Assembly: GCA_016195725.1 (NCBI GenBank)
Contig: JACPZB010000022.1
Span: 1 to 38,808 of the forward strand
Direction: 5' to 3'
Source: Deltaproteobacteria bacterium
Lineage (GTDB): Bacteria > Desulfobacterota > GWC2-55-46 > UBA9637
DNA: 38,808 nt
Shown here: positions 5,881 through 10,928 of the stretch, piece by piece
How the letters are laid out: each line of letters begins with the position of its first letter
How positions within the stretch are numbered: position 1 is the stretch's first letter
Translations under genes and position numbers: made by a program
Notes under the pieces: generated by a model
Seen by the model: the letters and a program-made list of their open reading frames with translations, nothing else
Databases searched by the model: none
Told to the model about the DNA's origin: nothing

Positions 5881-6951
5881 ATGGAATACAGAACCTTGCC
5901 TAAAAAAAGAATCGCCTCTTTTGTAACAGGGCTCTTGAAAGAATTCAAGGTTTATGGCCCTGTGAAAAAAGACGGCTTCCCAATGTATGGCGAGATTACA
6001 TCGCCAAAAGACTTATATCTCCTCCACACCCCTACCCATCTTTCACCAAAACAGTATTTATTCCCTCAAAAAGAAACATTATTAAGATTTAAAAGTGGTG
6101 CGAATCCTCCCCCTTTATCCCCCTCTGGAGGGGGACAGGGGGAGGACATAGCGCCTGTTGTAGAGGCAGAGAACCAGGTGCTTTTCGGCGTGCATTCATG
6201 CGACATCCATGCACTACGGCTCCTCGACAGGGTCTTTGCCTATGGACCGCCTGATGCAAATTACCTCAGGAGAAGAGAAAAAACTGCCATCATAGGTGTT
6301 GACTGTATGCCTGATAAATACTGTTTCTGCAAAAGCGTAAACACTACGACAGCGGACTCAGGCTTCGACCTCTTCCTCCATGATATTGGTTCAGGCTTTA
6401 TAGTAGAGATCGGCACTCAAAAAGGAAAAGCGCTGCTTCATAAACACACAAAGAGCAAGAAGACAACTGCCAAGGAGATTAGAAAGATTGTTGAATTTAA
6501 AAACAAAAAGGCCGAGCTCTTTGTCGCAAAAATAAATGCCGAGGCATCCACCCTGCCGCTTATCTATTCAGGCAGCTATTTTAGCCCTGTGTGGGAAAAG
6601 ATAGGCAAAATCTGTTACGGATGCGGCTCATGCAATCATGTCTGCCCAACATGCTACTGCTTTGATGTAAGAGACGAGATCAAAGCCAATTTGACAGAAG
6701 GAGAACGATACCGAGTATGGGATGCGTGCCTGCTGGAAGATTTTGCAAAGGTTGCAGGCGGTCATAGCTTCAGAAAGACAAGGGCAGAAAGGCTGCGACA
6801 CAGGTTTAATAGAAAGTTCCAGTATCAGGTGGATAAATTCGGAGGGCTTTTTTGCGTTGGCTGCGGCAGGTGCATCAGGACATGTCTGGTCAATATAAAT
6901 ATTGCTGAGGTAACGAATGAACTCATTGAAGAATCAAACCGCCGCCGCTGA
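5881..6951 (+). CDS. hydB: Group 3b-type [NiFe] hydrogenase beta subunit (4Fe-4S protein, HydB-like)
   Basis: This 356-residue iron-sulfur subunit resembles the sulfhydrogenase beta subunit. Its C-terminal third holds two ferredoxin-like cysteine clusters, CYGCGSCNHVCPTCYC (about residues 242-257) and CVGCGRCIRTC (about 325-335). Upstream are FGVHSCDIHALRLLD and GVDCMPDKYCFC, which are also typical. In the complex it relays electrons between the HydD/HydA hydrogenase dimer and the flavoprotein HydG. Residues about 75-89 (NPPPLSPSGGGQGED) are encoded by a perfect-stem C/G palindrome at 6105-6146 that interrupts an otherwise family-like N-terminal region without breaking frame. The start lies directly behind another palindrome and lacks a clear ribosome binding site. 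The 3' end overlaps hydG by 35 bases. Confidence 0.88.
   Translation: MEYRTLPKKRIASFVTGLLKEFKVYGPVKKDGFPMYGEITSPKDLYLLHTPTHLSPKQYLFPQKETLLRFKSGANPPPLSPSGGGQGEDIAPVVEAENQVLFGVHSCDIHALRLLDRVFAYGPPDANYLRRREKTAIIGVDCMPDKYCFCKSVNTTTADSGFDLFLHDIGSGFIVEIGTQKGKALLHKHTKSKKTTAKEIRKIVEFKNKKAELFVAKINAEASTLPLIYSGSYFSPVWEKIGKICYGCGSCNHVCPTCYCFDVRDEIKANLTEGERYRVWDACLLEDFAKVAGGHSFRKTRAERLRHRFNRKFQYQVDKFGGLFCVGCGRCIRTCLVNINIAEVTNELIEESNRRR
6105..6146. repeat. C/G-rich palindromic element inside hydB, in frame
   Basis: Outer arms TCCTCCCCC (6105-6113) and GGGGGAGGA (6138-6146) pair over 9 bases. Inner arms CCCCCTC (6119-6125) and GAGGGGG (6128-6134) pair over 7. The 42-base length is a multiple of three and the element reads through as proline-, serine- and glycine-rich peptide. 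Two relatives lie in hydA at 10355-10402 and 10618-10662. Confidence 0.85.
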
Positions 6952-9575: not shown

Positions 9576-10928
9576 ATGAAAAAAAACATTAAAATAAACA
9601 TCCACCGCATCACCCGTGTAGAAGGTCACGGGAATGTTGTTATTGATATTAAGAAAGGGCTTATAAAGGAACTTCGGTTTGAGATTATAGAGTCGCCGCG
9701 TTTTTTTGAGGCGATACTGAGAGGCAGAAAATATGACGAGGCGCAGCATATCATGAGTAGGATTTGCGGGATATGCGCTGTAAGCCATACATCGGCCTCG
9801 CTCAAGGCGATTGAGGATGCAATGGGCATAACCATTTCAAAGCAGGCGACCCTTTTAAGAAAACTTGCATTCCACGGAGAGATGCTCCAGAGCCATATCC
9901 TGCATCTCTATTTTCTTGTTCTGCCTGATTTCTTCAAGGTCGGCAGCATCGTGCCTTTGACAAAGAGCCACCCTGATGCTGTAAAACGAGGACTTCGGCT
10001 CAAAAAACTTGCCAATGAAATATGCTATACTATTGCAGGCCGGCATATTCATCCGATTTCACTTTTTCCTGGCGGCGTTGCATATACGCCAAGAGAAAGC
10101 GAACTAAAGGGATTAAAAAAGAGGCTTGAGGATTCTTTTGAGGATTTAGAGGCAACACTCGAACTTTTCAAAACCTTTAAGACATTGGAATATTCCAAAA
10201 AAAGGGAATACCTGTCGCTCAAAGAAGATGGCAAATATGCATTCTATGATGGCAAAATAGCCTCTAATCTAAAATACTCTGCAAAACCAAGAGACTATAG
10301 AAAACTTATAAAGGAAAGCATTGTCCCCCACTCTGTTGCAAAACATGCAAAAATAATCCCCCCTCCCCCCCTTTTGAAAAGGGGTGAAAACAAGGGGGGT
10401 TACATGGTTGGCGCACTCGCGAGGGTTTGCAATAACTTTAACCAGCTTTCTCCGAAAGCCAAAAAGGCTGCAAAAGAGCTCGGCCTCACTCCCCTCTCCT
10501 GCAATCCATTTATGAATAATGCTGCGCAGCTTGTGGAATCGTTCCACTGCACAGATGATGCTATAAAGATAATAGACAAACTGCTGTCAAATGGACTTAA
10601 AAAAGAGGAATTAAAAAAATCCCCCCTCCCCCCCTTTAAAAATGGGGGGCACAGGGAGGATTACACAGGCATAGGCGTTGTGGAAGCGCCGAGGGGGACA
10701 TTGTATCATGAGTATACGATTGACAAGAACGGCATCGTAACGGACGCAAACTGCATTATCCCGACTGCCCAGAATCTGCGGATAATAGAACAAGACCTGA
10801 GAGGGTTTGTGCCGACAATTTTAAGTAAACCAAAGGATGAGATAACGAGAGATATTGAGAGCCTTGTTAGGGCCTATGATCCATGTATATCATGCTCTAC
10901 ACATATTATGGATGTCAGGTTTGTGTAA
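9576..10928 (+). CDS. hydA: [NiFe] hydrogenase large catalytic (alpha) subunit, group 3b type (HydA-like)
   Basis: This 450-residue subunit holds the nickel-iron site. The N-terminal ligand motif is RICGICAVSH (C64, C67, H71) and the C-terminal motif DPCISCSTH (C437, C440, H443). Seven residues follow the final histidine and fit the peptide removed by an endopeptidase after nickel insertion. With HydB, HydG and HydD it forms a soluble NAD(P)-linked hydrogenase (group 3b/sulfhydrogenase type) that can run in either direction. Two palindromic elements read through in frame and add proline/lysine/glycine-rich loops near residues 260-276 and 347-362. No maturation genes (hyp genes or endopeptidase) are in the window. 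The ATG at 9576 follows GAGGCTC; no better start is apparent. Confidence 0.92.
   Translation: MKKNIKINIHRITRVEGHGNVVIDIKKGLIKELRFEIIESPRFFEAILRGRKYDEAQHIMSRICGICAVSHTSASLKAIEDAMGITISKQATLLRKLAFHGEMLQSHILHLYFLVLPDFFKVGSIVPLTKSHPDAVKRGLRLKKLANEICYTIAGRHIHPISLFPGGVAYTPRESELKGLKKRLEDSFEDLEATLELFKTFKTLEYSKKREYLSLKEDGKYAFYDGKIASNLKYSAKPRDYRKLIKESIVPHSVAKHAKIIPPPPLLKRGENKGGYMVGALARVCNNFNQLSPKAKKAAKELGLTPLSCNPFMNNAAQLVESFHCTDDAIKIIDKLLSNGLKKEELKKSPLPPFKNGGHREDYTGIGVVEAPRGTLYHEYTIDKNGIVTDANCIIPTAQNLRIIEQDLRGFVPTILSKPKDEITRDIESLVRAYDPCISCSTHIMDVRFV
10355..10402. repeat. C/G-rich palindromic element inside hydA, first copy, in frame
   Basis: Inner arms CCCCTTTT (10368-10375) and AAAAGGGG (10377-10384) form a perfect 8-base stem; outer arms CCCCCC (10358-10363) and GGGGGG (10394-10399) add six more pairs. 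The reading frame passes straight through, giving IIPPPPLLKRGENKGGYM. Confidence 0.85.
10618..10662. repeat. C/G-rich palindromic element inside hydA, second copy, in frame
   Basis: Inner arms CCCCCC (within 10628-10634) and GGGGGG (10644-10649) flank a TTTAAAAAT loop; outer AATCC...TCCC pairs with GGGAGGATT. It shares the start AATCCCCCCTCCCCCCCTTT with the first hydA copy and is translated as KSPLPPFKNGGHRED. Confidence 0.85.

Follow-up and report, generated by a model that had tools for sequence, protein, structure and literature searches.

In a gene for a sulfhydrogenase beta subunit (hydB), we found an in-frame insertion of a 40-nt palindromic core that is probably a very short, non-autonomous, dispersed selfish hairpin. 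Such an element would enter the loops of hairpins, and its copies in genes would be retained only where the reading frame is preserved. This core, hereafter referred to as type A, is dispersed in the genome, lies in frame at sites that are empty in orthologues, occupies the tips of hairpins, where it replaces loops, and takes part in in-frame nesting; its movement is suggested by the presence and absence of copies among the sequences compared. The window, that is, the whole stretch of DNA analyzed, is 38,808 nt long and constitutes one entire contig of the home genome (G000), a draft of 2.07 Mb in 115 contigs. The features of the window are listed in Table 1.

Table 1 Hairpins and the genes carrying them in the window
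Feature	Position	Strand	Basis or remark
hydB-like sulfhydrogenase beta subunit gene with insert	5881..6951	+	Open reading frame, homologues, dN/dS about 0.1
Palindrome with closing T-A pair	6105..6146	.	Sequence reading and folding
Type A palindromic core, 40 nt, in frame in hydB	6106..6145	+	CCT-C5-TTTAT-C5-TCTGGA-G5-ACA-G5-AGG
Hydrogenase large (alpha) subunit gene (HydA) with two type B hairpins	9576..10928	+	Open reading frame, protein comparison
Second window hairpin, type B, in frame in the HydA gene	10358..10399	+	Net +33 nt
Third window hairpin, type B, in frame in the HydA gene	10620..10662	+	Net +30 nt

An earlier note on this DNA had described the hydB element as a palindrome with nested perfect stems of 9 and 7 bp, and direct reading of the sequence bears this out: the outer stem is formed by 6105–6113 and 6138–6146 and closed by the pair T6105-A6146, the inner stem is formed by 6118–6124 and 6129–6135 with the loop CTGG, and short asymmetric internal loops lie between the two. 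When folded as DNA with its flanks, the palindrome gave −20.3 kcal/mol (z −4.7), a value equaled by none of 200 shuffles; the z value of the RNA fold was also −4.7. What is repeated is the 40-nt core CCTCCCCCTTTATCCCCCTCTGGAGGGGGACAGGGGGAGG, and the surrounding T/A pair is part of the site. The core is open in five of the six reading frames, and its position in the 356-aa HydB frame is in frame and free of stops, as had been claimed. The gain, put by the note at about 15 residues, was found to be smaller: since the home hydB has 84 codons between shared anchors versus 72 in eight of nine close relatives, the net gain is exactly 36 nt, or 12 residues (G001, one of the eight, was counted after removing its separate LVPAG insert). 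The expectation that all HydB homologues would show a gap at this site held for these eight near relatives, but not for G007, from a different genus of the family, which carries a related, longer palindromic insert there, a compound of 66 nt with two hairpin units. HydB was present in 39 of the 41 genomes searched (a count that includes the home genome), and the sulfhydrogenase beta subunit of P. furiosus (9nez_B) also lacks the inserted segment. In comparison with each relative, G007 among them, dN/dS is about 0.1 (Nei–Gojobori); the gene looks functional and is under purifying selection. That G000 and G007 exchanged this site by local gene conversion was also considered and dropped: the rise in identity is limited to the insert-bearing 60-nt window, and no other window showed one. 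Other in-frame inserts occur elsewhere in hydB, one after GPVK, encoding LVPAG..., in G001 (L030) and G007 (L026), and another segment after FLH in G006 (L053) and G004 (L054); they apparently come from different repeat families.

The hydB element is not alone in the window, as two more hairpins lie in the gene for the large subunit, in the same operon. G000, G002, G005, and G007 have the insert at the first HydA site and G001, G003, G004, and G006 lack it, a pattern that does not match the genera; at the second site, different inserts are found in G002, G007, and G004. Comparison with empty orthologues gave the net gain at each of nine coding sites: besides the 36 nt of HydB, they are 36 nt in LigA (six empty relatives, with a 12-residue gap also to the E. 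coli LigA), 30 nt in PurF, 30 nt in CoaX, 39 nt in QueA, 33 nt at the first HydA site (30 in G005) and 30 nt at the second, 30 nt in TrmD (six empty relatives), and 27 nt in FabZ. Two further changes are additions to existing hairpins: the QueA gene of G002 has an extra 48-nt hairpin in the tip of a hairpin that is also present in the home genome, and the SelB gene of G001 has an extra 27-nt palindrome, GTGGGGACAGATTTCAAATCTGTCCCCA, in the tip of a core that G007 has, both in frame. All of these 11 measured coding changes are multiples of three, for which the chance expectation is about 6 in a million. By contrast, none of seven non-coding changes (26, 28, 28, 29, 29, 29, and 32 nt), which were compared between repeat copies rather than strict orthologues and in which a 40–41-nt core replaces 9–15 nt, is a multiple of three. 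Since the coding gains are all in frame and the non-coding ones are not, the simplest reading is that the frame would be kept by selection after insertion, not by a frame-preserving mechanism. In the FabZ gene of G007 (L255, G007:C234), about 56 nt of the coding region, not a multiple of three, are in apparent tandem duplication, possibly an assembly error.

The load on conserved genes was estimated with 38 loci of the home genome plus the window, which were selected on the DNA pattern alone and contain 47 hairpins. Of these hairpins, 40 fall in open frames that are 150 aa or longer, although one such frame is clearly no gene (L011 overlaps a tRNA). About twenty conserved genes have NCBIfam models that span the hairpin or match the sequence to either side of it: those for LigA, PurF, MutS2, SdhB, a histidine kinase, LysA, CobB, QueA, BirA, CoaX, an NtrC-type regulator, Acs, UvrC, MnmL, GlnE, NnrDE, a P-type ATPase, a NuoCD-like protein, CbiB, and HydA. 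In the genomes of the family, type A cores also occur in SelB, TrmD, CheA, FabZ, and a hybrid kinase (names from translated motifs), and the reading frame of the inserted core varies between genes. As a control, 15 copies were sampled in G046, a type B-rich genome from a different family within the phylum; they are mostly intergenic or at the ends of open frames, and therefore the open-frame criterion does not find genes everywhere. For the same reason, the idea that heavy gene invasion is general to such hairpins across the phylum was dropped. In the gene for the NtrC-type regulator, one site holds unrelated repeat types: an in-frame hairpin in the home genome (L156, about 1570–1609) and in-frame tandem heptamers, e.g., (TCAGCCT)n, in the orthologues L186, L187, and L202.

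Many further copies of the palindrome, both intergenic and intragenic, were found in the home genome, as the earlier note had anticipated. The nested C5/G5 pattern TCCCCCTN{6,30}AGGGGGA has 30 forward matches there versus 0 for the reversed pattern, and the looser CCCCCTN{6,36}AGGGGG has 81 versus 4. Every one of the eight family genomes contains the exact type A core (CCCCCTTTATCCCCCTC N1-4 GAGGGGGACAGGGGG), at 3–21 copies each, with 0 for the control. When 84,980 genomes were scanned, it was detected in 90 stretches; the 80 of them that are listed come either from groundwater MAGs of the home family ("Deltaproteobacteria") or from Planctomycetes, chiefly Brocadiaceae, so that the exact core is also present in anammox Planctomycetes. 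Nearly all of the 102 core copies have the ends CCT...AGG, and the asymmetric spacers TTTAT and ACA are likewise common to nearly all copies, although the search pattern itself demanded the spacers. These shared spacers and ends point to a common descent of the core copies.

Several observations concern related elements. In a survey of the phylum, C5/G5 hairpins were strongly over-represented in several families other than the home one (G046, G093, G095, G123, G158, G160, G166, and G176) and absent from many, the picture of a patchy, wider superfamily. A second palindrome family, GGGGACAGATTTGAAATCTGTCCCC, is nested in C5/G5 hairpins (G000:C91:11746, L146 643–703, L163 1540–1598, and L010 1503–1552), with copies in GlnE and SdhB, among others. 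An Rfam search with the type A element gave no match above threshold. The whalefall-1 RNA (RF01762) scored 32.5 bits against 6115–6147 of the window, below the curated threshold of 37 and with 23 model positions missing, and it scored 30.7 and 27 bits against two other core copies (L077:3920–3953 and L001:424–456), again below the cut-off. The element was thus dropped as a member of a known RNA family, and the sub-threshold score is at most a lead; the matches raise the question of whether the whalefall-1 "RNA" is possibly itself a dispersed hairpin element. In a planctomycete MAG, the Acido-Lenti-1 RNA (RF01687) was found above its cut-off (46 bits) at L077:4123–4168, with a core copy about 170 nt away.

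The sequences around the core give information on the insertion target. In the home family, the uninterrupted Watson–Crick run outside the core has a mean of 2.48 bp versus 0.39 bp for re-paired left and right flanks (this set includes a few loci outside the listed matches, some of them planctomycete-looking), and in Planctomycetes the corresponding values are 1.70 and 0.69. As compared with copies of the outer repeat without a core, the core sits where the old loop was in ATTCCCGC/TTAATGCTT/GCGGGAAT; a second such replacement is GAGGCGT/ATTTTAAGCAT/ACGTCGC, and in GCGACGAGC/CGTATGTTCACCG/ATACGG the core replaces the loop and one arm. In these comparisons, 9–15 nt of the old sequence are replaced. 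The element is also nested in itself, to three levels at C43:7382, and other palindromes are nested in the core tip, as in the SelB gene mentioned above. No target-site duplication, a feature of MITEs, was seen at the compared sites, where target bases are replaced. The empty sites of hydB and LigA show no clear hairpin, and hence the targeting of hairpin tips would be a preference at most.

As for the spread between genomes, G000 and G007, which belong to different genera, share about 95% identity in the flanks of the AsmA-like genes with a core (L001 and L059), and the flanks of SelB in G001 (L248) are 94% identical to those in G007. Given that these core-carrying genes are 94–96% identical across genera versus about 80% for the hydB DNA, some of the sharing between genera is due to recent gene exchange. 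Repeated insertion, loss, and exchange are possible sources of the distribution.

These features can be accommodated in a mechanism in which the core would enter the single-stranded loops of hairpins, or else small inverted repeats, and replace about 4–15 nt of the target. Copies in genes would survive only if the net change keeps the frame and the element is read through without a stop, and the survivors would lengthen the protein by a proline/glycine-rich segment, probably tolerated as a surface loop. The inserted hairpins would then become new targets, which would lead to growth by nesting at the tip. The agent would act on single strands, and a trans-acting nuclease or transposase, or else replicative template switching, may move the core. 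As the mover, we favor an activity provided in trans that works on single-stranded hairpins and replaces loop bases; the main alternative would be replicative template switching with a distant donor.

A rather unlikely explanation is that no mobility is involved and that slippage and template switching at hairpins produced the inserts by local mutation, their likeness being due to convergence on C5 and G5 runs. The frequent complementarity of the core flanks would fit this explanation, as would the different inserts at the same CoaX and HydA sites across genomes and the tandem heptamers of relatives at the NtrC site. However, the exact asymmetric core, in which TTTAT stands opposite ACA, was detected at dozens of unrelated sites while the reversed control gave 0, and because of this recurrence convergence is unable to yield the likeness of the cores. 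We regard it as improbable that the core is a REP/REPIN moved by the tyrosine HUH transposases (RAYTs) of the genome. The home genome does have five Y1_Tnp (RAYT-like) genes, and enzymes of this class act on single-stranded hairpins (PMC6006769); nevertheless, the core adjoins none of the five loci, its copies are in genes while REPs are extragenic, and its ends are CCT/AGG without a GTAG tag. The RAYT was therefore dropped as the mover, and no mobilizing enzyme was found at these loci. One RAYT-like gene (1047–1578 on L176, G000:C80:1–4500) lies among GTAGTGCGAGGC palindromes (925–1060, 1602–1665, and 2394–2445); this is a classical REP/REPIN arrangement of another family, distinct from the C5/G5 core.

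Two other explanations carry far less weight. Short GC-rich hairpins within conserved genes could be translational bypass elements, such as the byps known from yeast mitochondria, or intron-like inserts removed from the RNA; yet an insert that is skipped or spliced needs neither to be open nor to be a multiple of three, and all of the measured coding inserts are both, which makes this reading very improbable. It is scarcely credible that the segment is an ordinary lineage-specific loop of HydB, GC-rich and palindromic by chance: loop length does vary among HydB proteins, but the site is empty in eight relatives and the same nucleotide unit occurs in unrelated genes in different reading frames.

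The putative mobile hairpin can be compared with known systems. The earlier note had likened the element to the Rickettsia palindromic elements (RPEs), of which several families exist, intergenic as well as in frame in unrelated conserved genes, with nearly half of the copies intragenic (PMC10969869, PMC2229807). The likeness is right as to behavior, because relatives lack the HydB residues and the genome holds many copies; membership does not follow, as the core measures 40–42 nt versus 105–146 bp for RPEs (PMC2229807). The core shares with RPEs and Wolbachia palindromic repeats that it is palindromic, dispersed, and found both between genes and in frame in unrelated conserved genes, but its hosts are uncultured groundwater bacteria rather than intracellular symbionts and, unlike RPEs, it nests in itself at hairpin tips. 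From REP/REPIN sequences, which are likewise short, imperfect palindromes dispersed alongside RAYT-like genes in one genome, the core differs in having no GTAG/CGTC-type tag, in adjoining no RAYT gene, and in being mostly intragenic in the home genome. The small dispersed repeats (SDRs) of cyanobacteria measure 21–27 nt, and some families insert into their own copies. They are very small hairpins that are not known to have an enzyme (Elhai et al. 2008, cited in PMC3116915). The nested insertions of the core (QueA of G002 and the three-level nest) are SDR-like, and at 40 nt the core is longer than the size given for SDRs. Short GC-rich mobile hairpins without their own enzyme are also known as mitochondrial double-hairpin elements or GC clusters, which differ from the core in being organellar (PMC4478555). 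Mitochondrial genomes of Nematomorpha keep inverted repeats in coding genes, as the core is kept, but these are perfect repeats of up to 284 bp in animals and have no dispersed core in common (PMC6649704). Finally, the length of a bypass insert is free of the frame, whereas the core inserts in coding regions are all multiples of three.

Heavy in-frame invasion of conserved proteins by palindromes has been documented in Rickettsia, and a 2024 review treats it as only conceivable elsewhere (PMC10969869); it is now found in uncultured, presumably free-living groundwater bacteria. The core accounts for odd P/G-rich inserts, such as PPLSPSGGGQGE (HydB), SPFIPLWRGTGGG, and PPLEKGGKGG, that would otherwise be annotated as novel protein features. 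Because empty orthologous sites exist for many inserts, it is possible to measure the cost of insertion, the selection for frame, and the target, and tip nesting and loop replacement point to a testable mechanism. The core is among the smallest candidate mobile DNAs. At somewhat less than an even chance, it may represent a new class of mobile hairpins of about 40 nt that target and replace hairpin loops and then become targets themselves, giving nested mosaics of unrelated palindromes, also in conserved genes and there always in frame, with a core that would have crossed between two phyla.
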